Origin: Gracilaria domingensis
Taxonomy: Eukaryota; Rhodophyta; Florideophyceae; Gracilariales; Gracilariaceae
Length of the DNA: 64,000 nt
Assembly: GCA_022539475.1 (NCBI GenBank)
Contig: VCMS01000249.1
Span: 1 to 64,000 of the forward strand
Reading direction: 5' to 3'
The notes under the pieces were generated by a model, which was given only the letters and a program-made list of their open reading frames with translations, did not search any database and was not told the origin of the DNA. Of the stretch, positions 1 to 64,000 are shown piece by piece. Position numbers and translations under genes: made by a program. The number at the start of each line of letters is the position of its first letter. The first letter of the stretch is position 1.

Positions 1-39
1 ACACGAACGTTCGGCACATGTGAAACCAATACATTTTAC

Positions 40-534
40 ATGAATATGCAGACGTTGAAGTATACAGCGCTAGAGACACGGGAGTCTGGTTATGCCCCGC
101 CGAGCCAGAGTACTCGATTCAACACAAAGGATGTGCCACAGAGCAGTACTAGTGGATCGGTGGAGACCTTGAGTGATGAATGCGATACAAACCTGCGAAT
201 ACTGGCTAAGGAGTTTTTGACAGACCTCGAAACCATATGCACCCACGATAGCCTCTATAGCTTACGGGTTGATCAGATGAGGAACTGGATAGAGTTTTCG
301 GAGATACGGATGGATACCGTATCTAGCTCTGACTCCGGTGAGTTGCCTGCTCGATTTCAGAAGTTTTCGGAGTTGCTATGGAAACCGATACAGGATATGC
401 GTCATGCGGCAGGGTTCCATGTCGGCATTCACGCGAAACCTGATATTGAACTGACGAAAACCCCTAAAACTTCCGGTAATGCCGAACCTTCTTCGACCAA
501 GTCTGCCCACCCCCACCTCGTCGAGAGTATATGA
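40..534 (+). CDS. Unknown 164-residue protein, first ORF of the transposon cargo
   Basis: I do not recognise this protein. It is 164 residues, rich in Ser, Thr and Glu in the first third, with a helical-looking middle around LRILAKEFLTDLETIC and no membrane segment or zinc motif. Its TGA stop overlaps the ATG of the methyltransferase reading frame (ATGA at 531-534), so it is either a separate upstream gene of the same transcript or the N-terminal part of the methyltransferase joined by a -1 shift. The start at 40 is the first ATG, only 39 bases from the window edge, so the true start could lie outside. It is probably part of the transposon. Confidence 0.4.
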   Translation: MNMQTLKYTALETRESGYAPPSQSTRFNTKDVPQSSTSGSVETLSDECDTNLRILAKEFLTDLETICTHDSLYSLRVDQMRNWIEFSEIRMDTVSSSDSGELPARFQKFSELLWKPIQDMRHAAGFHVGIHAKPDIELTKTPKTSGNAEPSSTKSAHPHLVESI

Positions 535-1807
535 ACCTCGTGAGCTCCGATAGCGACGAGTTCGAGAAGCCGGTGAATCTTGCGGAGCATGAATCTCGGG
601 TTGCCGGTTACAACATCCAAAAGACTGGTATTGAGCCGCCCATGAAGGGGATATCCAGTCTCCTTCGAATGAATATGGACAAGGTGTGGAAGGGGATGAG
701 AAAGTCACACTTTGTAGCGTACAACTGTGACATGAAGGACCTGAGGCACACACACGAAACGTTTGTGAATCAGAGTGAGATTTTATGGGGTGAGGCACAG
801 CTTGTCCTAACAGACCCTCCCTTTAACACTCGAAGGAAGAGGAACAAACGGAATAGTGGTCACGATGTCTTCAGTGAGGAAGACATGATCCGTACGGCTG
901 ACTTAATAAGTTCCGCGCTTCGGTCAGGTGGGCACTTCATTATATTCTGTGCCATGGCACAGTTTCATGTGTGGCACAGGATACTTTCGGAAACGGCGAG
1001 TACGAAAGATGAAGCTGGAAGCGAAGGTAAACCAGAACTCATGCCTTCGTTTAAAGTGGATGCGAATCCACTGGTGTTCATCCGGGATCGCAGTAATGTT
1101 GGAGGGAATCCACGGAAGTTTGGGATACAGCCCGTAACGGAGTACGCCGTTCATGGGGTGAAGCGTGGATTGCGACCATCGGAGGAAGCCAGTCTTACTC
1201 CATTTGAGGAGAACAATTTCATTCCTTCCACTTTCCCGGCTAACAGGAATGTAATTGACCGGGTGCCCAAACCGAGGCGGGGGAGTGGTTGACATGGAAG
1301 GTACATGAGCCAGGTAGCTCAGTACCAGGTGGGCAGTACATAAGACCGGAGCAGAAGTCGAGGGAGTTGATGAAGGAGTTGATATGTCGCTTCACAAGAC
1401 CGGGTGATCTTGTCATGGACATGTTCGCGGGAACTTTTTCTACGGGTATGGCGTGCCTATCGCTGACAAAGCATAGGAAGTTCTTGGGGTGCGAGAAGAA
1501 TAGGCCATGTTTCAGCCATGCGAAGCACCATCTAACGACTCTTATGGCCGAAGTTATTCGCGGGGGGAAGAATGACATCCTGGTTGAACAGGAGGTGGTG
1601 GATGCGGCTTCAACGACCTATGAACGGGTTCCACATCGGGACCGAGGTCGGCTTGAATGGGAGGCTCCATTTGGTTACCCCCAGTACCAAGTGATGCCTG
1701 GACATATTACTCAGTTCCTAGGAAGATACTGGAAGGACTGGGACTTTGTCGACAAGTGTGGAGAGCGTACTGTAGATCTTTGGGAGGGAAGTACCGAGGA
1801 GCTCTGA
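531..1807 (+). CDS. Beta-class DNA methyltransferase (N6-adenine or N4-cytosine type), split by a frameshift near 1260-1290
   Basis: AdoMet-dependent amino-methyltransferase of the DPPY/F family, acting on exocyclic amino groups in DNA. The first frame (531-1292, 253 residues) carries motif IV, TDPPFNTRR, at about residues 94-102, followed by a beta strand and helix (GGHFIIFCAMAQF). The second frame (ending at 1807) carries a motif X-like GGQYIRPEQKSRELMKELI and motif I, VMDMFAGTFSTGMA. The order IV then X then I is that of the beta class. The two frames are halves of one enzyme: the second is open from 1259, so a single -1 (or +2) shift near the run GGCGGGGG restores continuity. The break may be decay, an assembly error or recoding. 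Target base and site cannot be read from the sequence. Neighbouring ORFs abut within five bases on both sides. Confidence 0.8.
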
Positions 1808-1812
1808 ATCTT

Positions 1813-2418
1813 ATGGATATGCATATGCTGTTGACTGTTGAAGCCAATCGCTATCGCTTACATATAGCATCTTCTAAGATTCGACATCCCCGTGCTGGTA
1901 TGGGGGTGTTCACGGAACATAAGATATTGGCTGGGGAAACTATCTGTCATTTCTATGGAACTTTGGTATACACGGATCTGACGAACCGGAAGGAAAGACA
2001 CTTAACGTATGGAAGTGGCTGTCTCGGAGCAACTCCAGTGCGGTACAAGTTGTTTTCTATGATGGTCACTGTGACTGGTACGGAGTTTCTGCACCTGAGG
2101 AACAGACCAGGACAGGCTCAGGATAGAAAGGAGAGCGAAGTCTACATTGTCCCGGCGCCTTTTTGTATCGGGGGCTACATTAACGACGCCGGATATCATG
2201 CCGGGGATCCCGATTTATCGGAGCCCCGGTCAAACAGGACTCGAAGTGCCAATGTGCAGGTGGTGGAAGCGAAGTCCGTGATACAGTTCAAGTCAGACCT
2301 TTCTAACTATGCTCTACTTCGTTGTAGAGCAGTAAGAGATATTGAGAGGGGCGAAGAGTTGTATTTCAACTACGGAGAGCAGTACGCCTGGGACTGGGCT
2401 CTGACATTGGAGCAATAG
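1813..2418 (+). CDS. SET-domain protein (probable protein lysine methyltransferase)
   Basis: About 201 residues from the ATG at 1813, five bases after the methyltransferase stop. The protein is almost only a SET domain. The N-terminal part has the glycine-rich cofactor segment (RAGMGVFTEHKILAGETICHFYG, near residues 28-50). The middle has GGYINDAGYH followed by a RSANVQ stretch, which corresponds to the pseudoknot motif RFxNHxCxPN. The C-terminal end has RDIERGEELYFNYGEQY, the usual GEELxxDYG segment. No pre-SET, post-SET cysteine cluster or chromatin-reader domain is visible. The asparagine-histidine of the canonical motif is only partly kept (IND rather than NHS), so activity is not certain. 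The frame is open upstream to 1657, overlapping the previous gene, so a -1 fusion is possible. Confidence 0.8.
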   Translation: MDMHMLLTVEANRYRLHIASSKIRHPRAGMGVFTEHKILAGETICHFYGTLVYTDLTNRKERHLTYGSGCLGATPVRYKLFSMMVTVTGTEFLHLRNRPGQAQDRKESEVYIVPAPFCIGGYINDAGYHAGDPDLSEPRSNRTRSANVQVVEAKSVIQFKSDLSNYALLRCRAVRDIERGEELYFNYGEQYAWDWALTLEQ

Positions 2419-2666
2419 ATGAGTTCAGTACCGAATAGAAAGTAAATATGCTTGTGAGTGTTGCAGCTGCCTGCAATACGCGTTGTTGTACATGTACACT
2501 GGAGCTCTTCATCTGTAACGGCGATATTTGCGACCCATTGGGCACCTCAAATTCCTAAAAAGCAGGAACTGCGGAGTCTCCCGGAATATCTGAACCATGA
2601 CCCCCCCCCCACCCCCTCCCCCCCTCCCCAACAATTTCGTTTCATTACCCTGTTTATCTCCACAGC
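2419..2666 (+). other. Intergenic region with C-rich tract and a possible 5'-leader intron
   Basis: No gene is seen in these 248 bases. A tract of almost pure C lies at about 2600-2630, followed by a pyrimidine stretch and TCTCCACAG at 2658-2665, one base before the next ATG. Together with GTGAGT near 2454 this would make a leader intron of about 210 bases. It is only a match to splice-site consensus. The region could equally hold the promoter of the next gene. Confidence 0.3.
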
Positions 2667-5062
2667 ATGGGTATAACGCCGAGAAAGCGAAATAGTACGC
2701 AGCCGAACAAGAGTGGACAGAAGAAGAGAAGAGCATCGGATGATACGAATCAGGCTACAAGCACCGCACTTCCTAAACGGAAGTCGTCCTCGACGAAGGA
2801 GAGAGTCAGTGGGCGTCCTTCTACAGGACTCTCTCGCCCATCTCGCAGCGGAGCGTCTTCCGGGATCGCGTCAAGAATTCGTGGATCAGCGAATGATGTC
2901 GTGCCGTCAACTGCCGGTAATGCAAATCGTGCATCTGTCTCTGCTCCTCAAGAAGATGAGGTAACTCGGCCCAGCGGGTCAGGACAAAGGGCATGACAAC
3001 TGGAACCGAAGAGATTCGTATGACACCAAAACCTTCATGTCCCCGGCCGATATCGAAGACCGGAGCTACTGGGGCGCGGGTTACGCCGCCCAGTGGATCT
3101 GGACAACAAGGGACAATGACGAGAAGTCGTGAGAGCCCTAGTATGTTAAGATCGTCACGTCCATCCCTGTCTTCTAGAACTGGGGCCGCCATGATTCGTA
3201 TCATGCCTCGCAATGGGTCCGGACAAGGGAGAAACACAATAAGAAATCGAGAGACAACTGATAGACGAGTTACTTTTCGACCTTCCGCTCTTTCCAGAGC
3301 GGGGGCCGTTGCAGCTCGTACGAGGCCCAATTCATCTGATATACCATGCCATGGAGGAGGACAGACACGGAAGTTGGAGCTCGGAGCCGTGCCAAGGGTG
3401 GACACAGAACGCCTGCAGCCTCTCGTGGCTAAGGCTATGGCACATGAGGATATTTCCGATAACGAAATAACACCGAATCCTGCGGCATTACCGGGGCCTG
3501 TCGCCGAAGAAGCTAGGGAAATAACGGAAGATATCCAAACTGGTGTGAATTCAAGCTCTATGAACAGACCTGATCTTTTAAATGAACTGAATTGCTTGAA
3601 AGAAAAGGTTAAGACGCTACAAGAGGACTTGATGGTTCGGGGAATTCTAGTGAAGGTCGCCCAAGAGCAGAGTACGGCTTTGAAAAAGAGGCTTGAAGAG
3701 AAGGATCTAGTCATTGAAGGGCTACAAGGGGCACTGAAACAGGAGGGAGATAGAAGTACACGTGCTGGTGAACCTGGGCAGACAGGTCGAAAGAAGCATA
3801 AAATTGAGGTGTGCGACGAGTTTCGAGGGGTTGCTCGAGCAGTGTATTACAACATGCTGACGTGGGCAAGGAGAGAAACAAGTGAGCTATGGCTCGAAGG
3901 TGAGTCGCTCACCCGAAATTGGGGTAACCGTGCCGAGAATGTGGAAAACGCAACTGAGAGTGGGAAAGAGCTTATTGAGCCGGAGGAAGGTGGTTCATAC
4001 ATGGTTCCTAAAAACCCCGTGGAGCTCTTGGGCAGTTTTGGCATGTTCACACCGTCGGTAGAGGGGGGGCCAGATGCTTTGCTGAAGAAAATGGTTGAAA
4101 GCGAGTTGAAGGAGTTGAGCTGGGAAGGTATTAGAAAAGCATCTCTTACCGACAGGTGTATACTGGAACTTTGTGCAGATATGTGCCTTAGGCAGAGAAT
4201 GCGGCAGACCATGAGTGACGTCGTTGGCGTTCGTAAGAGAAATACGAGGGATAAACTATTTCTGCTCCTGGGGTACGATCTGATTTGGAGAAGAACAAAG
4301 CTGGTAGAAGAGAATGCTGACGAACTCACAATGCAGTTGAAGGAAGCGCAGGAGAACATACTGCGTCTTGACGAAAATGGTGTACCGAACACTTCATGGT
4401 GGAGAAAAGCCCCATTTGTTCGTCTAAAGTACTCTAATGCGGACAATGTCGAGGATATGCCGACGGAAGATCAAGACTTGTTCTTCCGAAACCGTGTCGG
4501 GGTACAAGTGCTGAAGGAATTTATTGGGTATGATGTGGAAGACAAGGATACGGGCACCTTTTTAGATGGCACAATACTGTTGCTCGCACGTTTGGACGCT
4601 TGGGTGTTGACGGTTGTGAGCCTTCTAAGTACGGATGTTTCAAGGGGTGGCCAGAGACAGAAACTGTTTACAAAGAAGTTTGCCGAACTGCTACCTCTGT
4701 GTTTAAAGAATGTTCTGGGGGATGTTAGGCAACGTGTCTTGAGGACCAATTCCAGCGAGTTTCATAATTTTGGAACGACAACGGAAGATTGGACTAAGGT
4801 TCTTGGTAATGACATGAGAGAGGCTACATTTGGATATCGAATGCCGTCGAACGGAAGACTTTACCTCACTGTGAAAGAACAATTTTTTATTGACAATGTG
4901 AGCCGAAGATTGGGGTCTATTAGCGATTGCTTCATTGGTGAATGCGAGGAAGGGGATATGGAGTTCAAGGAAATGGACATGAACGATTTCGAAAGTAACA
5001 CAGGATCACAAGAAAAGGCACCACAAGGCGAACATGTAGAGGATGGAGCCCTTAATGTTTAA
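2667..5062 (+). CDS. Large basic, repeat-containing coiled-coil protein of the transposon, split by a frameshift near 2990
   Basis: I do not recognise the family. Two frames (2667-2996, 109 residues; 2993-5062, 689 residues) meet at an ATGA overlap. An imperfect repeat of about 40 residues with a core T(R/P)PSGSGQ and MPRNGSGQ occurs on both sides of the junction, which argues for one original protein. Order: a very basic Arg/Ser/Thr-rich N-terminal 150 residues with three GSGQ repeats, likely DNA-binding or disordered; a heptad-rich coiled coil near residues 190-250 of the second frame (LNELNCLKEKVKTLQEDL); then about 400 residues of predicted mixed fold with no motif I know; an acidic C-terminus. 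No zinc motif or membrane segment. Its stop overlaps that of the opposing transposase. It may be a structural or accessory transposition protein. Confidence 0.55.
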
Positions 5063-8000
5063 GGCTGTACAAGATCAACGTGCTCAGTTGGTCCTTCATC
5101 TGAATCATGATAGAATCGATTGATGTAGAATCGGTGTTGAAACCATTGAAGCGGAGGACAAAAAGGTGGAGCAGGGTAGTTTGATCGAACAACATGGACA
5201 GTTCCCTGTAGTGCAGAAGCCGGAACCATCCCGTACCAAGGAGTTAACTCTACGATAGTCTCCGCTTTGGAATGACGAGGGAACGGAGGAGTGTGGTTCT
5301 TTTCATCGTTTGTAGCCCAGCATAAAGATATGCATTTCAATATGTGGTCGATGTTTGTTGCGGGGGGTAAAACCTCGAAATACCGGACGAATGCCACCTC
5401 TGGTGCGGTAAGTGCAGAATCAAGGAGAGATATTCGAATCAGAGCGACTACCTGGGCAACCCAAGTCTCTGAATCTTCTCCGCTTACCAATACAGTGGAA
5501 AACTTTGGCTTTCTACTGGGACCAAATGCTGGAGAAGCGAAGACACGTTGGATGATGGGGTATTTGGGTCGTCCCAGCTTAAGTGCCTTAGAAGACGAAT
5601 TGAAGTGTTCAAGAGTCGGAACGAAACCGCCTTTCACGAGGGCCGAATTCACCAGAGTTATCCATGTCTTTTCTGGGAAGTATGTAATAGAGTGCTCATC
5701 CAGTGTTTCTTTCACGAGACTGAGGAAAGGAGGAAGGGCCTGTTCACCAATTTGATCAAGAATCGACCTTGTGTCCGTACTTGAGAACATTTCTCTAACA
5801 GCAGTCCATGTTTTTGAACTGGACATACTTGAAACACAATGTTGAAGAGCTCGTAAAGTGAAAGAACGCCCTCTCATTGCAAACCGAAGAAGCTGTGTGG
5901 AAGTTCCTGGTAAACCTGGATTACGCTGGTAAGGAGTATTGCCATTCCATTGCTTTCTAACATGTCCGTGCTCAATGGAGCGAATAGTCTCCTCCACAGC
6001 CGTTGCTGTTCTTCTGGACGTCTTTTTGTAGTGTCTCTTAAATAGCAGGTGTGCATGTTCGTATATGCCTGCGTCGTAGTACTTGATACTTCCCAGACGG
6101 CGAATATCGTCCACGAGATGATCGAGAAGATGAAACTTCAGAGTTCCCAGTCTGGAGGGATGAAAATCCGCCAGAGTCTTTGTTGCGGAACGCTTGAAGG
6201 CTTCAATCTCCGAACTAAGACACAGGAGAGAGCTTTCAGTCCAATACGGGTCACGATTGTATCTGAATAAGGTCGAGAGCAAGTCCGAGTACTGAGAGAA
6301 AACGGTTGTGATTGGGGCAACGTCCTGTTCTCCACAGCATATGTCAAAGAATGCTCCTATGAAGGGAAAGACCATGTCAAGTGCTTTGTAGTTTTTGGCC
6401 TCCAGCATTCCACGGAGACCGTCTTTCGTGAAGATACCATTCAAAGATTTGCCTTTCTCCTGCGTGGAGAAATCGATATGTAAACCTTTGGCAGGAGAAT
6501 CGCGTTCTATGGCAGCTAGAATTGCGTTTGCATGGTTGAGGAGTTGGGTGCGTATCGTTCGAAATGAACGCGATGCAGATGTTCCTATTGTGGTGCACAG
6601 GGTGTCTGACTGCAGTCTCTCGATTGTGGCCGTTTTTATCAACTTTGAGATGCCGAGATGCAAGTTGTGGAATGGTTCGAATGAGAACAGACTGTATGGA
6701 GACAAGTCCGGGATCATTCCAAGGCTTACGGAAGTTTCGAGGAACGAAGGAATGAGAGATATGGAATTTGAACGCATCAGAGTATCCGCTTGAGATCTCC
6801 TCTCCCTCGCACGACGTGGACGTCTTTCCGCCTCGTCTTTTTGTGCATGTTGCAAGATAGCTGTGTATGTCTTTCGGATGCTTTTTGTGTGCTTTTGAGA
6901 ACGTCCGTTGAATGAGGTGGGGATAGGACTGCATAAAGATGAGCGAGGGGCTTTGCATCTATGACACGGGCATTCCGTTTTGGTCCCATGAAGAATAGAC
7001 AGAATGTCCTTAGCCTCAGGAATATCCGCACAATAACTTGCAAGCAGAGGATGGCACACTCGACTTAGTTTGTCTTCGCCGATGAACTGAAAACCTTTCT
7101 GCGTGAGATTTAGAATGGGCTCCAGGACTTGACGAAGAGATTCTTGAAGGATTTGCATCCTGGACTCGCGTAGAGACTTGCTAGAAACGAATGGCATTGC
7201 GTCTGCTTCAGATGCGGAAACCTCGATCAGTGTGGTAGGGAAGTATGCCACTACTGTGAGGTCATCACGGATACACTTACGGCGAAGCTCGTCGGAGAAG
7301 TTGAGAAATATGAGGTGAAGAGGATAGGCGGTAACCGATGTTTGCTTTAGAGTTATTGAAGACTTATCGGTGTATACCTGCAGAAGACCTACGAAAGATT
7401 CACTGTAACTTATTTCTTGGAAGTACCACACTATTCTACTATCCAAAGAGCCCATGACCATTTCCTTAAGTTTTGAGGTGGCGTCTCTTGCGAGAGAGCC
7501 AGACATGGGGTGAGATATTTTCGTGGAGTGGGTCTGAGGTATAGGGTGGAAGAATGTGTTTTCGTTGTTAGCCAACTGGAGCTGTTTCACAAGTGTCTGA
7601 ACGGGGTCTCTCGTGTAGAGGGTGGCGCTGAACTTACATCCTTCTGGCGAGACAGTTCTGCGATTGAAACCGTCCTTTGAGGCGTATCGTTCGAAAATGG
7701 CGTTCTTCAGTTCTGTACAGCGCTTGGAACTTGTTATGGTCTCGTTGAATCGCTTTTGCGAGAATCGCGGGTCCCGAAGTAGACCAATTAGCTCGTCCGC
7801 CTCACGATGACCAAGGTTGGAAGCTACTGAAGCCAGACAAACCGTGAGATAATCCATATGCAAATCACCAAGGGCCTCCTCAGAAGGCACTGGGCGGGAA
7901 CTGCTTCCGTGTTCTCGCTCTAATGACGCGGGACCCGTGAAAAGAGAAACACAATGCGAAGTGTCCGGAATGGGAGGGGCGCACGGAGTGGGGTCGACGA

Positions 8001-8239
8001 TGTCCTCGGACACCGGAGGCTCGGGAAGGCGACAAGGGGGCAGTGACCGTTTCGGAAGATGCGGCCGCGCGCGCGGAAAGCTTGAGACGCTTGCTTCTCC
8101 GAATGGGCCGGCTATTGTCGTCTTCCAGCGCTGCTTTCAGACGAAACGGGCAATGGTTGACATGCTGTTGAAGAGATGAGACTCCTCGGCGAGTAACGAA
8201 GGGGCACCCACGCTTCTTATGTGTACAGTAGTAGACCAT
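5059..8239 (-). CDS. Plavaka-like DDE transposase with N-terminal zinc finger (frame change near 8040)
   Basis: Cut-and-paste transposase. The reading frame starting at 8239 begins with a finger-like segment (CTHKKRGCPF then HVNHC) followed by a basic stretch (RRSKRLKLS). The main frame, 984 residues from a non-ATG codon at 8013, is fully open. It shows YTDKS near residue 216 followed by AYPLHLIFLNF, a CPCHRCKAP cysteine pair near 350, FEPFHNLHLGISK near 446, and YEHAHLLFKRHYKK near 652. These fit the RNase H-fold acidic residues of the Plavaka group of CACTA-related transposons, with Glu in place of the usual second Asp. Finger and catalytic frames differ by one base, so an intron, a frameshift or an error near 8010-8060 separates them. 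The gene ends tail to tail with the plus-strand gene in TTAA at 5059-5062. Confidence 0.75.
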
Positions 8240-8604
8240 GGGAAGAAGAAATGAACGAGAAACGACGACAAAGACTGCAAGGGAAGGGCGTCCGAAGGAA
8301 GAAGGAGGTCGAGCGACAGTCAATATCGACGTCTTGCTCAGAACGGAGAATATATTTTGAGTTTAAATCACGTGCTTTCGTTCAAAAAGGAACGTAGGTA
8401 CACGTCGACCTCAACACAAGGGTGTACTTCTCGTATTATCTACCACTGGTTATAAACCTGTGGTTTCCCAACGTTGTACGCTGTACACCTGTCCAATCTC
8501 GCACAGAAAAATAAATCTCTTCCCTCCGCCGCCGCCCCCGCCCGTCCGACGTCCGACCTTTTGTTACCGTCGTGATCCGTGCCATCCTCGCGTTCTACTC
8601 CGCT

Positions 8605-8668
8605 CCGTCGTACGTTTTTCCGCCCTCGCACTTGCTACGAAGTGCGAGGGCGGAAAAAAGTACGACGG
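8605..8668. repeat. Near-perfect hairpin, 28-bp arms, 8-base loop
   Basis: Arms 8605-8632 and 8641-8668 are reverse complements with one mismatch, and the loop is 8633-8640. It lies in the gene-free stretch right of the transposase. It may be a subterminal structure of the transposon, a foldback element or a small-RNA precursor. Confidence 0.85.
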
Positions 8669-8994
8669 ATTACGAAGTAGCGTGCTGAGAATGGATTCCA
8701 TTAAGCGGACATGAAGCGTACCTCATTCTCTTTCTCCGCCCTCATCGGACGCCTCCATAAAGCGGACATCATCCGTATCTCACGGATGTATTCCGTGCAG
8801 TCTTTTTGTACGTTCTCTTCCATACTCTTCTTTGTATCTTTTCTCTAAGCTAACCCATCGTCACCACGTTTTTTCGCGCTATGCGACATGTAAACGGCAG
8901 AAAATAAGCTTTGGGTTACCGGGTTCCCGTTTTCAACCTCTAGCTCGTTCTATTTGTTCAACTACGTTCTGCTTACGATATGTTCCATCTTGTT

Positions 8995-9640
8995 CTACGT
9001 CTTGTTACTCATATTGACTTGATTGAAGGTAACCACTCTTTGACGTGCGTCCTTTGTATTTCTTCCGAAGTCCACAACGACTGTAAGTACGCGACCAGTT
9101 TCATTTCGTCTCTCAAGATCAATCTCTGACTGCTCGTGTAACCTATCACGCTGTATTGCCGATCTTGGTTCACTGTCTTGCGCCATAGGCGTCTCTAGCT
9201 TCTCGCATCTTGCGCTAATTTTGGTTTGTTGGCGATCTTGGTTCCGCGATAGACTCTTCTCTCTTCTCGCGTCTTGCGCTGCTTTTCGTGTATTGGCGAT
9301 ATTGGTTGATATTGGTTGACTGGCTTGGGCGATACGTTCATCATTGGCGATCTTGGTTGACAAAGTTGCGCCATAGGATGGTCTCTCTCTTCTCGCGTCT
9401 TGCGTTACTTTTGGTGCATTGGCGATATGGTTTGACTTGGTTGCCTCATAGGCTCGCATCTCTTCTCGCGTCTTACGTTGATCTTCCTGTATTGGCGATC
9501 TTGGTTGACTAGCTTGCGGGATAGGCGATTCTGGTACTTGGTTGCGACATAGGCTGCATTCTCGATTATCGCATCTTGCGGTATGTTTGCTGCATGGGCA
9601 TTCTTGGTGTCCTTGGTTGTGAGTTCTCGCTTCGACACCT
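8995..9640 (-). repeat. Degenerate minisatellite of about 75 bp, open on the minus strand
   Basis: About six diverged units run from roughly 9160 to 9640. Each contains TTGGCGAT, a CTTGGTTG-like segment and CTTCTCGCGTCTTGCG. On the minus strand, two overlapping frames (9459-8995, 154 residues; 9638-9405, 77 residues) read the repeat as a 25-residue unit with core IAN-x-(5)-QDARREK. The unit length near a multiple of three and the lack of stops hint at a repeat-protein gene with one frameshift, but low-complexity DNA can give the same result. I recognise no family. Confidence 0.5.
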
Positions 9641-9887
9641 TTCGCGCTTTACGATGATGGTGGGCTGGTAATCAAACCGATCCCTTTCCTTCTTCTTTTT
9701 CATTTTGCGAGTTACTAGGTCCCTCGACTTTTCTAGCGCAACGTTTCTGTTTTGCTTTATCAATGGTACGTTCCATCGCATTTCAAATGTATCCAACGGA
9801 TCATTGACTAACTTATGGATACTTTCTGCTTGCGTATACAGGTAAATGACTTTTGATGCGGACGTAGCTCACGAGTTGCAGGTGCAG

Positions 9888-10040
9888 GTTCCTCAAGTAG
9901 GGAACCATGCATCTGGGCATGGTTCCCTACATGAGGAACGGAGAGGATGAGGCGCTTCGCGCCTCATCCTCTCGGAGTGCGTATTTGTTCTACCGATACA
10001 GCACTATGGTGGAGGTGCAGTCTGCGGCATCTGCCGCAGA
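9888..10040. repeat. Three consecutive hairpins
   Basis: Hairpin one: arms 9888-9910 and 9917-9939, one mismatch, 6-base loop. Hairpin two: arms 9941-9955 and 9959-9973, perfect, 3-base loop, directly adjacent. Hairpin three: arms 10021-10029 and 10032-10040, 2-base loop, flanked by a further imperfect stem (ATGGTGGAG and CTCCATCAT). Together they form a cruciform-prone stretch of about 150 bases without genes. Confidence 0.8.
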
Positions 10041-10294
10041 TTGCGCCTACACCCGCTCCATCATGGGGAAATGGTACATGTAATATAGCGAAGTAGTGGT
10101 TAGCAAAAGCGGTGGATAGAAGAATAGATACGAATAAAACGGTATGATTTCATAATGGGCATCATCTGTACTAGCACTAGTATTCCATGCGTTGCAGGGT
10201 ATCATTCCGCAGAAGGTATCGTGTAATGTGCACCTTAATGGAAACTGAACCTAGACTTCGCGAAATACAGTTCAGGTAGCCCTCGACTAAAGAA

Positions 10295-11005
10295 CTAGCA
10301 CGAGTGGAAAACCCACCAGTATTTACTGCACAGCGATTCTGGACGACCCAAGCAATTATCTGCAAATTTTGAAATAATTGATCTCGATATTTTTTCAAAA
10401 AATTTACTGGACGACCCTTGCCACTTTCTGGACGACCCTCGCCAAAAACTAGCATCTGCAAGAGACAGACGCTCCCCCTCCTTAGGTGGAGCGTTACGGG
10501 GAGCAGTCATCACGTCTGTTGACGGTGTAATAGACGCGGTGAAACGCGATTTCACCAGCGGTGTATGTTCCGATATCTCGGGTTGCGACGATATAATCGG
10601 TACCTCTGCGAGACCCCTTGCAGGATGGCGAAGCCCCACAGTAGGTGCAGTGTTCTGCGACGAGAATTCTCGGTTCTGTGTCTGTCCAGCTTCCTGCTTT
10701 GAATCCGAAACTACTTCCGCGTGCACGGTTGGGCCCTGCACGACGCGATCGCGGGAGAAACGATCATGAGCGTTGCCAACTTCCAGTACGACTGTGTCCG
10801 TATTCACGCTAATAACGCGGTATGGACCATCAGCGATGGGTGAAAGCTTATGGCGCCTCTCCTTTTCAGGGTTGTAGTACTCCTTCCTGACAAAGGCGAG
10901 GTTTCCCACTTTCAGTGCCGGTAGTGGTCTCCGTACCCGGGCATCAAAGTTCCGCTTGTAAGCGTGTTGTGCTTTCGCCATTGACGACCTGGCGACAGGT
11001 AGCAT
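10295..11005 (-). pseudogene. Gypsy integrase C-terminal part, end replaced by unrelated sequence
   Basis: The first 120 residues continue the integrase of the gypsy element: MLPVARSSMAKAQHAYKRNFD, then VGNLAFVRKEYYNPEKERRHKLSPIADGPYRV, the SH3-like GPY/F module of Ty3/gypsy integrases. The matching part of the element at 61.4-61.7 kb is almost the same. After this comes a Ser/Thr-rich linker that ends with an EGERLSL segment near 10475. From there the frame runs on through AT-rich DNA with a repeated GRP-like codon pattern (GGTCGTCCAG three times) and bears no resemblance to a gypsy element, so this marks the truncation point. It is separated from the upstream pol frame by ten bases and a frame change. 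Confidence 0.7.
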
Positions 11006-11014
11006 TGCGGATAA

Positions 11015-12946
11015 TCACTGCTTCAATTGCAAGTAGTGATCCCCTATTGACGGTGACGTATCCAACTTTGCTGATGGTTCAACCGCAACTGGCCGTGGTG
11101 TCCGTGAGAGCACAAGCTCAAAGAGCGATAAACCAGTTACTCTGTGAACTTGCGTATTATACGCATACGTCACGGTATCCGTATAGAGATCCCAAGTTTT
11201 CGGGTGTTCATCAGTATAAGCCCGCAACGCGGAGAGCATAGTCCGGTTAAACTGTTCGACTTGCCCATTGCATTGGGGATGATACGTCGTCGTGAAGAGA
11301 TTCTTCACGTCGAGTATCCGACAGACATCCTGGAAGAAACGTGAGGTAAACTGCGGGCCATCATCTGAAAGGAGATTGACCGGGGGACCGTAGACCATAA
11401 CCCAATGGCGAACGAATGCCTCCGCAACACTGAGTGCTGTAATCGACTTCAACGGAACTGTCCGGACTAGCTTACTGAATCTATCCGTAATGACGAGTAA
11501 GAACCGATTTCGTCGGGAAGTACGCAAGAACTCACCGAGTATATCGATGGCAATAAACTCCAACGGCGCCCTTGCGGGGAGAAGTGTTAGTTTCTTCGCA
11601 TGGCGACGCTGTTTAACTCGCTCGCGAGCACAATGTAGACACGCCTTCACGGTGGTGTGGCAGTCCAACGCTAACGCCGGCCAGTAGAAATCCCGACGCA
11701 GTGTCGTGTATAACCGCTTAGTACCCGGATGGGAAGCCATCCGCGAGTGATGCGAGAGATGCAATACCCTTGTTTGTAAGGAGTGAGGAACCACAATCTG
11801 TGGGGTAGAACGAACAACTCTGACGAGGTAACCTTGAGAATTAAGCCCAAAGGGGATCTTCGCACCGCCGTTAATCTGGGCGCGTATCCGCGTACAGAAC
11901 GGGTCAGACTGCTGTTCCCGCACCAGCTCTTCTGGCGTAGTAATCGGGACGAATGTACCGGATTCTGGGCCTTCACCGTCTGCGATGAGCAAATCATCAC
12001 AGATGTCGTCCGACACGATGTCGTAGTCTTCGTCACACTCCTCCATGAGGAAACAGGGGATATCCTCGTCATCCTCGTCGACGGGTAATGCCTCACCGTC
12101 CGTTCCTAATCGCGAAAGCGCATCCGTTTGCTCGTTCAAACAACCCTTCTTATAGGTGACCTCGTAGTCCAACTCGGCAAGCCGAAGACGCCAACGCATC
12201 AGGCGACCGGAAGGTTCCGTGATTGACATTAACCAACGCAATGCGGAGTGATTCGTATTGACGGTAAAGTGTATACCCATAAGATATGGTCGTAGCGTCT
12301 GCAAGGCCCATACCATGGCGAAACACTCCTTCTCGGATACCGAGTAATTGCGCTCGTGTACGTTAAGTGTACGAGACCAATAACCAATTGGTTTGCATTC
12401 CCCTTCGGATGTAGTTTGAAAGAGAGCACAGCCAATCTGGTAATCGCTCGAATCCGTATCCACCGTGTACGGCAACCCGTTCTTCGGTAACGCTAACACG
12501 GGTGCCGTAGTAACAGCCTCTTTAAGAGAGTTGAAGGCCTCCACTTGCGTGGGGGTAAGTAGTCCCAATTTGGGCGTCTGTCCCTTCTTCAAGAGTTCGT
12601 GGAGCGGTCCCGCGATCTTCGCGAAGCGAGAAATGAACCGTCTATAGACGTTGCATAGCCCCAGAAAGGAGCGTAGCTCTGTCTGTGTAGTGGGTTGCTT
12701 CGCCTCTTTGAGGGACTTCGCGCGAGTCTCCTCGATCAGCAGCTGTCCTGGACGTATGACATGGCCCAGATACTTCACTGAGTCAGTGAAAAACTCACAC
12801 TTCCTCAACTTGAGAGTAATTCCAGCATCTCGCAAAGCGGCCATTATCTCCCGAACATGTTCGAGGTGATCGTCCAAACTTTTGGAAAACACGATGATGT
12901 CATAGAGGTATACCAAGCAACTCCGCCATTTGAAGCGAGCTAACAA
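11015..12946 (-). pseudogene. Gypsy pol: end of reverse transcriptase, RNase H, integrase core
   Basis: 643 residues. It begins in the RT palm with YLYDIIVFSKS. The family has YxDD here, so the first catalytic Asp is Tyr (TAT instead of GAT, at 12902-12904). Then come the RT thumb (YLGHVIRPGQL), RNase H (DTDSSDYQIGCALFQ near residues 165-180; ERNYSVSEKEC; NTNHSALRWL, with Asn where the family has Asp), an acidic linker (DEDDEDIP), the integrase HHCC zinc finger (HHSRMASHPG then CLHCARE) and the integrase core with D (AIDILGEF), D (LLSDDGPQF) and E (QVEQFNRT). The frame is open through RNase H and integrase, but the catalytic residue changes mean that the RT, and perhaps RNase H, is inactive. 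Confidence 0.85.
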
Positions 12947-13758
12947 AATGTCCAGAGCACGCTGAAACGTGGGAGGGGGGTGTTCGTTAACCCGAACGGC
13001 ACACGCTTAAAGCGGTATAATCCTGAATGACAGGTGAACGCGGTCTTGTCACGGTCTTCCGGCCTAACTGGTACTTGCCAGTAACCCCAGTTTGCATCCA
13101 AAGTGGAGAACACAGTAGCATCGCCAAGCGAGTCGAAATACTCGTCCATACGAGGTATAGGGTACACGTCTTTGACGTTGACATCGTTCAAGCGACGATA
13201 GTCGATACAAAAGCGGCAGGAACCATCGGGTTTCGGAGCCAGTACAATTGGTGAAGCCCACGGCAACTGAGCCGGTTCTATCACGCCAGCGCAGAGCATT
13301 TTGTTGATCTGAAACTCTTCCTCTTTCAGTGCTTTCGGGCCTGCCGTGTAAGAGTGCTGAGCAATCGGCTTGGTCTCCGGCAGGAGGTCAATCCGGTGTT
13401 CCGTAGTTGAAACCTCTCCGAGGGAACTATCCCACATTGGTGTAAACTCTCGCAACATGTTGTGCAACTTCTCGCGGTGTGAAACCGGTACATGACCGAG
13501 ATTCAATTCTTCTATCTCCTTGATAGGGTCAATCTTGTCATAACTCGTAGAAGCGGTCCTAACTTCCGAGTCATTCGTTTGTTCAACCGTCTGAGACGGG
13601 TCCGACGCAGACGAGCGCGACGATTCTCCCTCCCCCTCCTTAGGGTGAAGCACACCAATGCGCTCTTCAGCAATCCCGAGCATCTCGGGGGCAGTCACCT
13701 TTGTAGGGATGAGCGCCGTAGGGTGCGGTAAGACAGTACCAATTACTTGGTTCTTCAC
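12940..13758 (-). pseudogene. Gypsy pol: linker and N-terminal half of reverse transcriptase
   Basis: 272 residues. After a variable linker comes the RT N-terminal part: HRIDLLPETKPIAQ, GVIEPAQLPWASPIVLAPKPDGSCRFCIDYRRLNDV, then DEYFDSLGDATVFSTLDANWGYWQV, which holds the first catalytic Asp of RT (TLDANWGYWQV), and TAFTCHSGLYRFKRVPFGLTN. The frame is lost right after GLTN, where a 1-base shift leads to LPRFSVLWTFC and a stop. The continuation in the next frame starts with LARFKW. It is also out of frame with the protease section upstream. The intact counterpart in the second gypsy element is at 59155-59715. Confidence 0.8.
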
Positions 13759-13787
13759 TAGATACTGGGGTTTCTTGCCAAAGTTGG

Positions 13788-14516
13788 CTAACAGAACCGA
13801 AAGGGGTGTTCGCTGTTGATTTGAACAACTCCGTTCGCCAACGCGACCTGATACTTCTCATATAACGATTTCAATGGTTGAACAACCCGCAAACCACGCG
13901 GTGCGGCGGTAACATCAACCCAAACCTGGGATTCTGGCGGAATAGAAATTGCACGCGCTACGCGGAGCTTCGGCGACTCCTTCGGAGGTGAGAAATCCTG
14001 TAAAGGAGCGGGTAGTGGTACCAGCTTAGCTGACGCTCGGCGTAATGAGCGACGAACTATCGGTAGAACCGAACCATCTTTCATTTCCACTTCACGCGCA
14101 CGCAGTCGTATGGCTTCGACACATCTGTCGCAGAAGTCACACCCTAGAATGACAGGGGCAGCGAGCGTCTTGCAGACGATGAATTCTACCTGCTCGATGC
14201 AGTTACCAATCCTGACAAGCAGTGAAACCATTCCAGCCGTTTGTAACGGGTTATTGTTAGCATCTGCCACGTCCATGACGGGTCCATGGCGGAATCGACA
14301 ACGGACTTTCGGCGGTAGTAACGACTCAACAATGAAGTTGGGGCCAGCACCTGTATCCAAGACAGAGAGATGACGCACCATATACTGGGTGGATAGGCCA
14401 AGGTCAGCAAATATCTTGTAGTTTCGCTTGGCCATCACCATGACTCGATCCGGGATCCGGTTGTTCCTGAACCGTATCCACGGGCGACGTAACACACCAA
14501 TGGTGGTAGAGTCCAC
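13788..14516 (-). pseudogene. Gypsy pol: aspartic protease region
   Basis: The protease motif VLDTGAGPNFI is near residues 52-62, followed by VILGCDFCDR near 128-137, the flap-distal segment of retropepsins. The upstream frame is open back to the gag stop, so pol is probably entered by a -1 shift at GTTAAAC (14630-14636, minus strand) just before the gag TGA. The end of this frame (GVVQINSEHPFRF) corresponds to GVVSIEPDQSFKV in the second element, where the protein continues, so the stop at 13788 is a frameshift product. Confidence 0.8.
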
Positions 14517-14626
14517 GTCTAAGACGGTCTGTTTCCTCGAAAGAATTTTGACCTGGGAGCGAGGCGGTGACGCCTCGGGCGCCGTAGACCTCGACTCGGG
14601 CTCCTCTCCATTGGAGACTCTCGCAC

Positions 14627-16710
14627 TCAGTTTAACTGAGTTCCATCCGTTCTAACGGGAACGGCGTCCTGTGCAGCAGGCATCTTCACAGATTCCTGTG
14701 GAACAGCGACAGAACTACCGGCAGCAGAGGTTGCCGCCACGGCTTGAACCGGTGAAGTATTGACCTGTGTCGAACCAGAGTGCAGTAACGCAGCTATTTC
14801 TGCGGCAGAAATTCTCCCAGGAAAGTCGGTTTTCGCCCGCAGATAAGCGGTTACCGGCACTGACGCCTGTTCGGCGGGGGTCAGCGCTTCAAAATTCGTC
14901 ACAACCGTGGCCATTTCTCTCATCGAGAAGTTACAGTTCGGAGCTGCATGACCGTGGTTGTAACACGTGAAACAGATCAAAGGTGGTCTTCCGGAACTCC
15001 GTGGGTCTTGAAACTTCGCCGTTAGCGGGTCTACCCAACCAAGTCGCTTGTAACGACTCCCTGAATAGGGTACTTGAGGACCGCGAACGAGTGGACGGTC
15101 TGCGTAAAGCAGTGCATCCTCCGTCTTCGACGAGGCTTCTGAAGTAGAAGGCAACTCCGTAGTCGGAATAGAATCCAGGTCCACCTGTGCGAGATGTATG
15201 TTATCCACACCGTGGCCAGAAAAGTCCTGCGGTAGCAGTGAAGCTGATGACCACCCTCCTTCGAGGTGCAACGCTTTGGTTGAAACCCAGGATCCTGTGC
15301 GTGCGCGCAAGGCGTCTCCCTCCGCCTTCGCGTACTGCACTAACTCCAGATAGGTAGTCTTCTTCCGGTCCTCCCGTCGCTGGGCAACCATAGTACGAAT
15401 AGCCGGATTCAATCCGTTGATAAACAGCGTACAGCGCTCGTTTCACGAGTAAACATTGCCACAACGGTGGAATGCCTTATTCAGGCGTACCAAGTACTCG
15501 GTCTCCGACTCCTTCGGGCGTTGTTTCGTCTCCCGCAACGCGGTGATTGCTTCCTCGATAAAGGTATTTGTCGCATACGAGCGCAACAAATACTGCACGG
15601 CTTTGGGCCAGCAGGTGACCCCTCCTTCAGAGGCGCGAGATGAACCTCTTACAGAGTTATACTGATCTTCAACGAGTCCACGTAGAAAATACCGTAAGGC
15701 AACATAAGCTTGCCCCTCACTCATGCCGAGGATGTCAGCCTCCGCTACAAAGCTTGAAAGAAAGTCAAGCACCAGAATGGGATCCTCCCCAGTGAATAAC
15801 TGGTTCCGAAAGGTTAAGGACATGCGTTTGATGCAGTCCTTCACCTTACCCGTGCCACGGGGCGTCCGATTCAGACTTGAATATTCCAAACGGTAATACC
15901 AGTAAGATAACAACCTTTTGAACAAGGGATTCGTCGGCTCCAATTCCCTCAAACCTGAGTGCTTTCGACCCCGTTTCCGGGTGCCACCACACCATAAGTG
16001 GACGTAGAACTCCGCGAACGCGTAGAACGAGCGCGACGTTCACCGTCAGCTGACGAGCTCGATGATAAGGAACCCGCCGAACGGTTTGAAATACCAGAAG
16101 ACTGTGACGGATCCGAGTCATACTCGTCAACATTCCTCTTCTTAGAGCGACTCTTTCCGGACTTCCGGTCACGTGTGCCACGAGACACTCCCACAGAAGC
16201 GGGGGCAGGACCGTCATCCTCACGGATGGTGGCCTCTAACGTCTCAAGACGGCCAAGAATCCGAATGAACTTCGTTTCCACCTCCTCGGTAAAACCGGGA
16301 TATCCTTGAAGTACCTCTAAAAGAGAGTTGACATCCTTCCGTAAAATACGTAGATCATCATACACACCTTCGGTGAGGGTAGCGTCAACCTTCACACGAA
16401 GTGTGTCGACCTCGGAAACGAGTGCTTCATGAGAACTCCTCATGACAGCAGTCTGAGCCTCAAGCACACGAACTTGAGTCTCCAACTCGTTTAAGAGCGC
16501 ATCCTTCGCCGCGACATCGGGAATAAGACCCTCCAAAGGAGCAGATGAAGGCCCAGCCACTGGGGCGTCAGACGACTTGACAGGCTGTTTCCGGTTTCCG
16601 GGTTTCTTTCCATCACCCTGTTGGGGTTCAGGAACAGACCGCAGACGCGGGGGCAAGCCAGAGCCAACGGAGTGAGACTTCGTAGGGCTCGAGCGTTTAC
16701 CCGACACCAT
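14627..16710 (-). pseudogene. Gypsy gag polyprotein, broken into three frames
   Basis: Starts at MVSGKRSSPTKSHS (ATG 16708-16710) and ends at 14627. The first part is Pro/Ser-rich and then a coiled-coil-like segment (LLNELETQVRVLEAQTAV; VYDDLRILRKDVNSLLEVL). The frame changes near 15950, and the capsid-like part follows (DPILVLDFLSSFVAEADILGM; SSRASEGGVTCWPKAVQYLL). A TGA at 15443-15445 interrupts the frame, which then continues in phase to the CCHC zinc knuckle CFTCYNHGHAAPNC near 14930-14970. The second gypsy element has the same layout. One frameshift and one stop make this copy non-functional. Confidence 0.8.
14630..14636 (-). promoter_or_regulatory. Possible -1 ribosomal frameshift heptamer GTTAAAC at the gag-pol junction
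   Basis: On the minus strand the gag frame reads CAG TTA AAC TGA. A -1 slip on GTTAAAC leads into the frame that is open into the protease. GTTAAAC is a known type of slippery heptamer. The related element has GAAAAAC at the same place before its gag stop. Confidence 0.45.
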
Positions 16711-17150
16711 CGTCCACGACGAAATACAACCAGAAAACTGGTAACAGGAAAGCAAAACAACAAATTAACCTCGAATGAGTGTAGCGTCTTCACACGAGTG
16801 ACAATAACCGACAAACCGGACGAACCAACCGTACCAACGGGAACAGCCGTATACGGAATTAGGGCTGATTCGACCAGATTGCTGAGAACAGTAGACAACC
16901 CAAACGGGGTGACAACAACCGTACCGACGGGAATCACACACTACGGAAATAGGTAGTGCCACCGGTAGTAAACCGTGTCCAAACAGCAACCAAAAATGTG
17001 GAAAGCAGTACCAACACGACGTCTGTCGGCAAAACCTTCCAGTACAAACTGTGTAGTGTATCTCCACGACCAGATACGAACCGGCACACCGAAAATTGAT
17101 CAGAAAACCAACTTGCTGGATCAACGCGACTTCAAAGTCGGGAAACCAAT

Positions 17151-17744
17151 TGTTGTGCAAAACCCAGCGATGCTTAAAAACACGCAAAGGCGGTTCAGAC
17201 CCTCTCTCAAGAGGTGAGCACAGCAGTAGAGCGCTCCTACAGGTACAACACGGCAATGCCGGGTGTAAGACCGGCGTCGATCCTTCTCAAGTAATGGAGG
17301 GAGCTATGTGGCAAAGAAGACGCGTCCAGCGGTAGAGAACACACGATACGAGTCGGTAGTAGCGTCACGTGCATAGTGCGCGGTACCCACGAGTGTGGCG
17401 ATGACACGCGAAAGCGGTGATAGCCCACGCGAGTGTGTCGAGCCACGAACGGTATGCACCCGTACACCAAGTAGTGCTACCTGTATAACAGGGACAGGAA
17501 TAAAGAAAACACACAGATCGTTAACACGCAAAAGCAGTAGTGGTGTTAATGGTGTCGCGAGGCGTATGATGAACCCTGCACAAGGTGTCGACTCTCTGGG
17601 AGGGGGATATCGGTCACCAAGGGTGAAACATCAGAGCCGAACACTCGGTTGTCTTGTTTACTTCCCCAGCACGGGGTGCAGCTCAACCTACTAAGTACTG
17701 CAGTAGGTTGACCCACTGTCAGTGTGGTACAGCAGATATGCTAC
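17151..17744 (-). repeat. 5' LTR of the minus-strand gypsy element
   Basis: In minus orientation the LTR starts TGTAGCATAT (right edge 17744) and ends GGGTTTTGCACAACA (left edge 17151), so TG...CA. Segments shared with the LTRs at 53131-54090 and 54437-55454 include the terminal TTTTGCAC-ACA, a GGTGTAAGACCG box and an AGCCGAACxCTCGGTT box. At 594 bp it is shorter than those (960 and 1018 bp). Directly inside is TTGGTTTCCCGACTTTG, a plausible tRNA primer-binding site; the second element has a similar TCTCCCGACTT. Confidence 0.75.
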
Positions 17745-17775
17745 AAATATCCACTTCAAATACCCCAATGAATAG

Positions 17776-18135
17776 GTGCAAACCTCCCGCACGTGTGTGA
17801 CTCACCGGCTAGGCCGTGCACCTCATAACACTAATTCTAATATTAAGTATACCCAAGAATGGGCTGATCTCACCAGTTATTCATACTGTGTACCACCACC
17901 TCCCGGTGTCGCCGTGCATATTATGATTCGCATCAGCGAAGAAGTCCCGCATTCGCGTTGCACTACAGTTTCGTCTTTATTGGACTCGGAAGCGAAGATT
18001 CTGTCAATGATGAAGGGTGTCACGGGCGATGATGAATATTCTAAGAGGCATTTGGAGAGCTGCTCACGACGACTCACACAGGTTGAGAAGATGATTAACG
18101 ACGCAATGTCTCAAAAAGAATCTGCATCTAATTAG
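17776..18135 (+). CDS. Unknown 119-residue ORF, possibly the truncated partner ORF of a Harbinger element
   Basis: The last 65 residues (ISEEVPHSRCTTVSSLLDSEAKIL to the end) look like real protein with a helical C-terminus (RHLESCSRRLTQVEKMINDAMSQ). The N-terminal part next to the gypsy LTR looks random. The stop is 53 bases from the stop of the opposing Harbinger transposase. PIF/Harbinger elements normally carry a second ORF encoding a Myb/SANT-like protein, so this may be its 3' end, cut off by the gypsy insertion. That is inference from position; no Myb motif remains. Confidence 0.3.
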   Translation: MQTSRTCVTHRLGRAPHNTNSNIKYTQEWADLTSYSYCVPPPPGVAVHIMIRISEEVPHSRCTTVSSLLDSEAKILSMMKGVTGDDEYSKRHLESCSRRLTQVEKMINDAMSQKESASN

Positions 18136-18188: not shown

Positions 18189-19376
18189 TCAAAGAGCACT
18201 GGAGTTTAAGTCGCGACGGCGTCGATGAAGTTGGACATCTAGATCGCATTCGTCTTGGAGGTGGATAGTGTAGTCGGCGGGCTCTGGGTGACCATTGGTG
18301 TCAGTACGCGAGGGAGGTGGAACAGTAACGCCACCGCCATTTTCTATAATGAAATTATGTAGTTTGCAGCATGTAACCACAACGAGAGTGTTCATTTGGA
18401 GAGTACAGCGCAGGGATCGCCAAAGTATTCCCCATCTCCCAACCAATATACCAAATGCTTGCTCGATTAATATTCTTGCCGAAATTTGCCAATAGTTGAA
18501 ACAGTCCTGCGCAACAGACAGCCGTCTACCGGACCACGGACAAAGAAGCCTCTCCGAACAAGTGTACGCGTCATCAGCCGCTATCCAGTAACCTGGCTCT
18601 AGACTTTCAGTATTTCGAGATAATAATCGAGAAAGAGAACTCATTGCATAAGCCGTTGAGTCATGCGTAGATCCCGGTGAAACACAAGAGACAAACGTAA
18701 ACCTGTAATATGAGTCACACATTCCTTGTAGGTTCAAGGTAAAGAATCCTTTTCGGTTGTAATATGTAGAAGAGTTAGCAACCTCAGAAGCCGACGGTTC
18801 GCAGATCTTCACAGGCAAGCCGTCCATTGCACCACAACAACGAGAGAATGGACTGGTTCCTTCTCGTGTGAACCTTTCTGAAACTTCTTGTAACCACGAT
18901 ATATTGGAATAAGGGAAGGTAATTTACAAGTTTTCTTTCAAGGAATGGACCGTTTCGTGAACGTGATGGTAGAAAGTAGAAGTAGATAGGTTGTGTGATA
19001 GACATATATCCAGATACGATCCCCCCGCTAACCAACGCAATTTCATAGAAAGCTTCAAGTAAATACTATGCCTGTAATCTTGCTCGTTCTTTCCGTAGTT
19101 AAATCCGATTATAGATATATAGACAAGACGGAGAAAAAGAGGAAACGGCCTTCTGTATAGACGTCGAAAGAATTTTTCAGGCATACCGTTTATGATGGAA
19201 CGAAATGTGACTATCGGGCGGTCAATGTTTTTGGAACATCGGCTTTCGAAAAGCTTGATGTGTCCGTGCCACACTGCAGCCAGAACGATAAAAAGATTTT
19301 CGGTTGATATCCTTCGTGAACGGTGCACTGCTGGGGCAGAAGCTAGTATGCGTCGACGTTGAAGTGGAGGATGCAT
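18189..19376 (-). pseudogene. PIF/Harbinger transposase, broken by frameshifts
   Basis: N-terminal frame 19376-18924 (150 residues) has the helix-turn-helix-like segment LRWLAGGSYLDICLSHNLSTSTFYHHVHETV typical of Harbinger transposases. The middle is in another frame (19035-18784). The catalytic part, 18827-18189, has GAMDGLPVKI (first Asp), SPGSTHDSTAY, AADDAY (second Asp) and ARILIEQAFGILVGRWGILWRSL (Glu). All three catalytic residues are present, but at least two frame changes around 18830-18930 separate binding and catalytic parts. It is related to the intact copy at 23214-24614 but clearly diverged, so it comes from a different subfamily. No terminal inverted repeats or 3-bp target duplication could be fixed. 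Confidence 0.85.
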
Positions 19377-23123: not shown

Positions 23124-23213
23124 TCCGTATGCGACGGTAATCGCTTGTGGTAGATACGAACCGCCGGCGCACAGCATTGCTCGTAAACATGTAGTAGCCT
23201 AGAAGGCTACGCT

Positions 23214-26044: not shown

Positions 26045-26504
26045 GATGGACATTTTGACGGACTTTCCAATAAATGCAATTGGTTATCATGTATTACTGA
26101 TGCTTGACTTTCGGAATACGCGGTTGATATGTTGATATCACTTGCAATTGCGATAGCCAGGCACATGTACCATGCGGTAGGATAGAGTGATCAGCAGTTG
26201 ACGATAGAAACGTGGAGCCTTATCGCTTGTGTGTGCCGGATAAGAATCTTTGTTCACTGCGTTCAACAGAGTGTGGTGCGACGGTACCGGAGATGGGCTA
26301 TGGCGTTGCCTGCGGCGCAGTACATCACAAAGAGTCTGAGATATTATACAACGCAGCTGCAATGGAAGACAAAGAAACATGGCTTGTTGATAATGCACCT
26401 CATACCCAATGCTTTAACACGAAACCAGACGATTTCCGGATCAAAGTAACAGACTTCTTGCGTGCTCATCTTTCAGGTGCTTTACGGCATATACTAGGAG
26501 TACG

Positions 26505-57767: not shown

Positions 57768-57769
57768 AC

Positions 57770-58942: not shown

Positions 58943-59154
58943 AGAAGTTGAATCTGGACCATGTCCCAGCGTCTCATCGCGAGAAGTTGCGGGACATGCT
59001 CAGATAATTTACTCCCATATGGGACGGTTCCCTTGGAACAATTGGAATTACGGAGCACCGTATTGATCTGCTCCCAGATACTCGCCCAATCGCGCAACAC
59101 CCGTATCGGGCAGGCCCGAAAGCGCGGGAAGAAGAAAAGTCTCAAGTCGAGAAG

Positions 59155-63909: not shown

Positions 63910-64000
63910 CGGTGGGGGAGGGGGAGGGAGTTGAGGCTGTTGATAGTTGGCTGGGTGCGGTGGGGGGAGTGGCGGATAGGTCCATTGCGTATAAGTGGCA

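Follow-up and report, generated by a model that had tools for sequence, protein, structure and literature searches.

The window analyzed here, a stretch of 64,000 nucleotides comprising bases 1-64000 of contig C249, belongs to a genome assembly of 77.9 Mb in 680 contigs. Its first part is occupied by the right ~10.5 kb of a larger DNA transposon carrying a Plavaka transposase. Because the window starts at base 1 of the contig, its left side is the contig end, and the left end of the element lies beyond this edge. The features of the locus are as follows.

1..10471, no strand assigned: right part of the transposon (right end common to five other copies; left end known from copies C91 and C351)
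1..2418, plus strand: methyltransferase-SET fusion gene, start missing and frame broken several times (intact 1,055-codon frame in copy C465)
798..1511, plus strand: beta-class amino-methyltransferase domain, TDPPF followed by the motif I-like DMFAGTFSTG (approximate, transferred by offset from C465)
1897..2376, plus strand: SET domain (approximate, transferred by offset from C465)
2601..5062, plus strand: large coiled-coil-type protein, from ORFs, with the frame broken between 2960 and 2996
5059..8362, minus strand: Plavaka transposase (PF18759), its frame broken and its N-terminus carrying a cysteine/histidine stretch
8604..8669, no strand assigned: hairpin with 30-nt arms
9152..9611, no strand assigned: degenerate repeats of ~50 nt in the right subterminal region, which is variable in copy C47
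9888..10053, no strand assigned: three hairpins in the right subterminal region
10447..10471, no strand assigned: right terminal inverted repeat, ending in AGAGACAGACG
10472..17968, minus strand: gypsy-type retrotransposon flank with reverse transcriptase, RNase H and integrase matches, which hosts the insertion and lies outside the element

The original prediction had placed a DNA methyltransferase with a DPPF motif and a SET-domain protein next to a Plavaka transposase, and profile searches bore this out. The transposase ORF (5062-8136, minus strand), in which the motif CHRC is visible, matched PF18759 with an E value of 4.2e-19 (69.4 bits against a cut-off of 26.3). The ORF at 1259-1804 matched PF01555 (E value of 1.1e-11), with TDPPF located in the ORF at 480-1289, and the ORF at 1657-2415 matched PF00856 (E value of 1.9e-8). 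The ORFs of the large coiled-coil protein that had also been predicted exist at 2601-5062, but they matched no Pfam family, and the second of them matched no NCBIfam family either. The fungal setting that had been implied gave way to an algal one, since PF00504, the chlorophyll-binding family, is matched 11 times across 9 contigs of the genome (best E value of 1.1e-36). The top PDB match of the best of these loci was 7y5e (E value of 2.1e-71), presumably a red-algal (Porphyridium) supercomplex. These matches place the host among the algae, most probably the red algae.

The rest of the window contains further ORFs that were classified by eye. Four of them, at 18189-18923 (minus), 23187-24614 (plus), 56862-62282 (plus) and 62656-63999 (minus), resemble transposable elements, namely two of the DDE type (Harbinger-like), a second gypsy and a copia-like one. 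A 409-codon ORF at 37260-38489 (minus) looks like a tyrosine recombinase (R..H..R..Y) and had no Pfam match, and the ORF at 26418-27221 (plus) resembles a bacterial-type radical SAM protein (RRGCTRGCRFC).

The window copy is decayed, with frames broken in several places, as well as cut off by the contig edge, and the element family is multicopy in the genome. Part of these frame breaks may be assembly errors, because at least one stretch on another contig, C505, carries many small indels relative to near-identical copies. Genome-wide, the methyltransferase and the SET domain each have at least 150 copies; hence neither is a single-copy host gene, an outcome that would have told against a transposon cargo. 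A 1,055-codon open frame was present at 9 of the 150 listed methyltransferase matches and at 9 of the 150 listed SET matches, on the identical nine contigs. In C465, where the gene was examined throughout, an N-terminal region, the methyltransferase and the SET domain share one frame; residues 516-753 of the encoded protein matched PF01555 (E value of 3.9e-15, 56.8 bits against a cut-off of 26.7) and residues 883-1042 matched PF00856 (E value of 1.8e-7, 32 bits against a cut-off of 22.4). Thus, what had been taken for two genes is a single protein in intact copies.

The methyltransferase half is assigned to the beta class because DPPF precedes motif I, TDPPF being followed by DMFAGTFSTG in a domain above the PF01555 cut-off. 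Its closest solved relatives, matched mainly over the motif I half, were DpnA (5hek, E value of 3.3e-9) and CcrM (6pbd, E value of 4.1e-7), and phage proteins were 26.4-28.9% identical to the methyltransferase part among the 20 matches listed of 244. The SET half gave a weak match to the KMT2A SET domain (E value of 0.0045). Motif I of such methyltransferases usually reads FxGxG, with a second glycine, and NHS is the expected motif of SET-domain methyltransferases. The FxGxG S-adenosylmethionine motif was absent from all 15 copies compared, which have F(A/V)GTF instead, and this replacement makes the predicted methyltransferase activity uncertain. NHS was likewise missing, its position being taken by NDA, or by NDT in C9. 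TDPPF was intact in 10 of the 15 (altered in C328, C9, C100a, C100b and C208), and the first SET motif, RAGMGVF, was retained in 13. Scans that detect close relatives only revealed none of the fusion in prokaryote genomes, and none of the fusion, the transposase or a dioxygenase-like protein of the element (see below) in viral contigs.

The element proved larger than the 8.3 kb, with an end at 8400, that had been proposed. The right flanks of copies C91, C42, C157, C49 and C47 depart from the window sequence at 10471 into differing DNA, with C49 departing one base later by chance identity. Similarity had at first seemed to extend into the pol genes of the adjoining gypsy element, but the sharp end at 10471 in five copies rules out that the retrotransposon is part of the transposon; the neighbors beyond this point differ among the five, with gypsy DNA in two of them (C49 and C47). 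The far part of the gypsy element has 39 other listed copies, 27 of which end near 17968 and 12 at 17726. On the left, C91 and C351 diverge at CGTCTGTGTTCTGCAAAG, ~13 kb ahead of the methyltransferase match in C91, so that the element in C91 spans 108708-131636, or 22.9 kb, and full copies measure about 20-23 kb. Read inward, the right end is CGTCTGTCTCTTGCAGATG, and its comparison with the left end shows that the terminal inverted repeat is short and imperfect. With 26-base end patterns and up to 2 mismatches, the genome contains 574 left ends and 562 right ends, whereas the reversed control patterns found none. At two loci, L053 (C296:25273-29272) and L049 (C465:25702-28201), pieces of the element stand inverted head-to-head at 96-98% identity; these arrangements are either nested or inverted copies or else assembly errors.

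Both ends were examined in 20 copies, of which 19 have the termini CGTCTGT..ACAGACG and one (C37) differs in the last base. With the element defined as CGTCTG..CAGACG, an end that was set after inspection of the data by taking CG inside the element, the flanking 2 bp matched in 9 of the 20 copies, compared with 1.25 expected by chance (binomial p of 1.3e-6). The duplications are GG in C8a, TT in C19 and C28, AA in C37, GT in C9, AC in C27 and C8b, GA in C6 and TA in C42. The first 11 copies were scored by eye and the other 9 were tested with CG inside the element; shifting the element start 2 bases later left flank matches of at most 1 base in the first 11. Three of the duplications enclose cargo: C8b (20.1 kb) carries the methyltransferase and the transposase between AC and AC, C28 (15.4 kb) the methyltransferase between TT and TT, and C42 (13.1 kb) a SET copy between TA and TA. 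The remaining 11 copies (C34, C50, C51, C41, C91, C5, C23, C29, C54, C38 and C18), all of them pairs of at least 16.9 kb, have mismatching flanks, and these large pairs may have recombined or been wrongly paired. In C91 and C18, AA at the left flank faces TT at the right flank. On the strength of PF18759 and the 2-bp target site duplication, the element classifies as a Plavaka transposon at the superfamily level. Collectively, the many copies, common ends, inverted repeats and duplications upheld the prediction of a transposon that carries the methyltransferase and SET genes as internal cargo.

The order of the genes is conserved as well. At least 97 of the 150 listed methyltransferase copies are followed at 1-1.5 kb by a listed SET match in the same orientation, at least 26 have a listed transposase 3-9.5 kb downstream on the opposite strand, and at least 26 are preceded at 3-6.5 kb by the left gene; these counts are lower bounds, the matches listed numbering 150, 123 and 40. 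The methyltransferase-transposase spacing was 6.15-6.39 kb in 21 of the 26 cases, compared with 6.33 kb in the window, and the gene neighborhood exceeds chance. A 1,100-codon transposase frame was counted by eye in 21 of the 123 listed copies. A second set of Plavaka matches (G000 contigs, e.g., L001-L008) begins near profile position 105 as opposed to 41 and has frames of up to 1,110 codons.

In C91 and C351, the cargo begins on the left with a coiled-coil-type ORF, followed rightward by an ORF that appears Rossmann-like by eye (GTGRIG) and had no Pfam match. Next come a HAD-like protein with DVDGTL, which reached only E values of 0.11 (Pfam Hydrolase_3) and 0.015 (an NCBIfam phosphatase), a degenerate copy of it, and then a minus-strand protein of 1,308 codons that is intact on C81. 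The middle of this protein matched a phage ParB-like family (E value of 6e-4) and GmrSD_N (E value of 0.16). Its C-terminal part shows an HTD..GRGDVTHAG..R / HxD..H..R pattern that by eye resembles a 2-oxoglutarate dioxygenase, an assignment for which neither a Pfam profile nor a PDB sequence gave a match. The 1,308-codon frame occurs in 4 of 100 listed copies, two of which have a stop inside the match. Two single-sequence structure models, one of them of this protein, had pLDDT of 30.3 and 28.2 and were unusable. No tyrosine recombinase profile was found among the element ORFs scanned, which were the longer ones. The ParB-like protein and the fusion gene are separated by a divergent, promoter-like space that contains, at L047 2149-2487 (C465:30350-30688), G+C-rich nested hairpins with 129-nt arms, 91% complementary, whose number varies between copies.

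Pairing about the first hundred left ends with the first hundred right ends yielded 53 pairs, of which 4 were shorter than 10 kb, 31 measured 10.1-14.4 kb, 15 measured 15.4-24.3 kb and 3 exceeded 35 kb; a further left end lay inside 6 of the 53. Eight pairs contained a methyltransferase among the matches listed, all of 15.4-24.3 kb except one of 52 kb, and elements of ~10 kb with identical ends exist that lack both the methyltransferase and SET among these matches. One of them, C27 (10.2 kb), was examined as a whole copy. It retains the left 3.7 kb and part of the left gene, and its junction joins the stretch just ahead of the fusion gene to the equivalent of window position 5438, inside the transposase. 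Hence, C27 arose from the large element by internal deletion; it kept the identical two ends but has no fusion and a cut transposase. The idea of a smaller, ~10-kb Plavaka unit that is autonomous was considered and ruled out for C27, the one such copy examined throughout. Copies without the two genes, which could have spoken against their being cargo, therefore do not do so in this case.

To assess selection, we compared 14 copies of the fusion gene with the reference C465 over 628 codons. The dN/dS ratio ranged from 0.15 (C47) to 0.57 (C208), and in seven other pairs of copies it was 0.44-0.76; internal stops were present in 6 of the 14. Measured against a neutral nonsynonymous share of 0.785, a value set by the analyst rather than computed, nonsynonymous changes fell below the neutral share in 6 of 7 copies (p of 0.007 to 3e-7), with C237 giving a p of 0.12. 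Purifying selection acted on the fusion gene, which was functional while the family spread. At least 30 of the listed methyltransferase matches are 100% identical, and the near-identity of so many copies suggests recent activity. A strong decay signature of the 5-methylcytosine type was found neither among 15 copies, where C-to-T type changes per C/G site amounted to 0.0203 at CpG and 0.0158 elsewhere, nor in CpG observed/expected ratios across the window (0.98 in the element, 1.12 in the gypsy element and 1.04 in the rest). The copies being free of such decay, an escape from 5-methylcytosine silencing is disfavored as the purpose of the fusion.

Large Plavaka elements and Plavaka elements with DNA-mark-acting cargo are known already. 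The Plavaka giant repeats of Amoebidium are intron-poor gene clusters of up to 50 kb, whose genes find database matches nowhere but in remote lineages, dinoflagellates and red algae among them, and for which tyrosine recombinases are named as cargo (PMC11244446). The element described here resembles them in its large size (22.9 kb in C91), in its intron-poor multigene make-up with long uninterrupted frames and in its Plavaka transposase but differs in having no tyrosine recombinase among the ORFs scanned; the available portion of that description mentions no methyltransferase-SET fusion, terminal inverted repeat or target site duplication for the giant repeats. Fungal Plavaka elements carrying TET/JBP, in a superfamily placed in the CMCT clade, have target site duplications of 2-3 bp (PMC12730594). 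They share with our element the transposase, a cargo enzyme that acts on a DNA mark and the short duplication, here of 2 bp, but their cargo is a dioxygenase and their hosts are fungi, whereas the algal element carries a methyltransferase-SET fusion. Since the fungal PlavakaA and PlavakaB termini are given there as TGT..ACA or CATCA..TGATG, in contrast to CGTCTGT..ACAGACG, we file the element under neither. EnSpm-Plavaka elements have also been mentioned in a green alga (PMC12633428). A comparable domain architecture is that of N4CMT of bdelloid rotifers, a beta-subtype methyltransferase with a chromodomain (PMC8885841). Both are eukaryotic proteins that combine a bacterial-type amino-methyltransferase of the beta subtype with a chromatin domain, but N4CMT, as described there, is a host gene with a histone-reading chromodomain, and ours lies inside a transposon with SET as the partner. 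In the eukaryotic systems discussed by the same source, the connection between DNA and histone marks runs over separate proteins, CMT3 with KYP in plants and N4CMT with SETDB1 in rotifers. We propose a further analogy with VANDAL elements, in which the cargo of a DNA transposon alters its own epigenetic state. The VANC protein of VANDAL is an anti-silencing protein and is not known to be a methyltransferase-SET fusion. No such fusion on a transposon was found among the matches listed from the open-licence literature, one of these listings covering 12 of 70, and this cargo is the apparently new feature.

We propose that the fusion may act as a two-layer writer within one polypeptide. Its methyltransferase half would place methyl groups on adenine (or on cytosine at N4) within the DNA of the element itself, and its SET half would methylate the histones of that same chromatin. 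The element would thereby fix a chromatin state useful to itself, being either shielded from host silencing or kept quiet until transposition; alternatively, the marked state might be preferred by the transposase as a substrate or target. The most likely role would be chromatin self-marking that aids the persistence of copies, with an activating and a silencing mark both allowed. We hold with about as much confidence as doubt that the fusion writes marks on the DNA and chromatin of the element. The proposal is supported by the single frame for both domains, each above its Pfam cut-off, by DpnA and CcrM as the nearest solved methyltransferases, by a gene order and a distance to the transposase that are kept among copies, by the presence of both genes between paired ends, by the low dN/dS ratios relative to C465, and by the origin of C27 as a deletion derivative. 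It is weakened by the atypical motif I and NHS and the incomplete retention of TDPPF, and by the 11 of 20 copies, mostly large, that have no matching 2-bp duplication. Furthermore, deletion derivatives without the fusion also have ends and duplications, so that action in cis is not required of it. As a tentative and rather unlikely extension, the ParB-like, putatively DNA-binding protein with its putative oxygenase-like domain, encoded divergently to the fusion, might erase the mark or alter it further, in which case the element would be both writer and editor of an epigenetic mark private to its hundreds of copies.

The atypical motifs are also what lends substance to a different reading, namely that the fusion has a regulatory or binding role in place of two enzymatic ones, with a degenerate methyltransferase fold that binds the element ends or the transposase and a SET part that serves as a scaffold or acts on a non-histone protein. 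The loss of the second glycine of motif I in every copy compared and the changed NHS would fit this reading, whereas the retention of TDPPF in two-thirds of these copies and of RAGMGVF in most of them would not; purifying selection over both halves is compatible with binding as with catalysis, and overall we regard a purely binding role as possible but unlikely. Self-silencing, in which host heterochromatin drawn in by the marks would hold down the activity of copies and the element would be tolerated instead of protected, would accord with the hundreds of copies that the genome tolerates and with the report that N4CMT marks transposons in silent chromatin (PMC8885841). The many near-identical copies, with their suggestion of recent activity, sit poorly with low copy activity, and we consider self-silencing improbable. 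That the fusion is a passenger or neighboring host gene, with the true element being smaller and ending between SET and the transposase, is suggested by the ~10-kb elements without it but is highly improbable, given the internal deletion in C27, the methyltransferase or SET copies between paired ends in several cases and the conserved spacing.

If the fusion is a writer of marks as we propose, a bacterial-type DNA methyltransferase joined to SET would constitute a shorter link between DNA and histone marks than separate proteins do, and one located on a transposon. With many intact and deleted copies in one genome, the shaping of chromatin by a transposon for itself would be directly testable, and the fusion represents a concrete candidate for the source of 6mA or 4mC in an alga.
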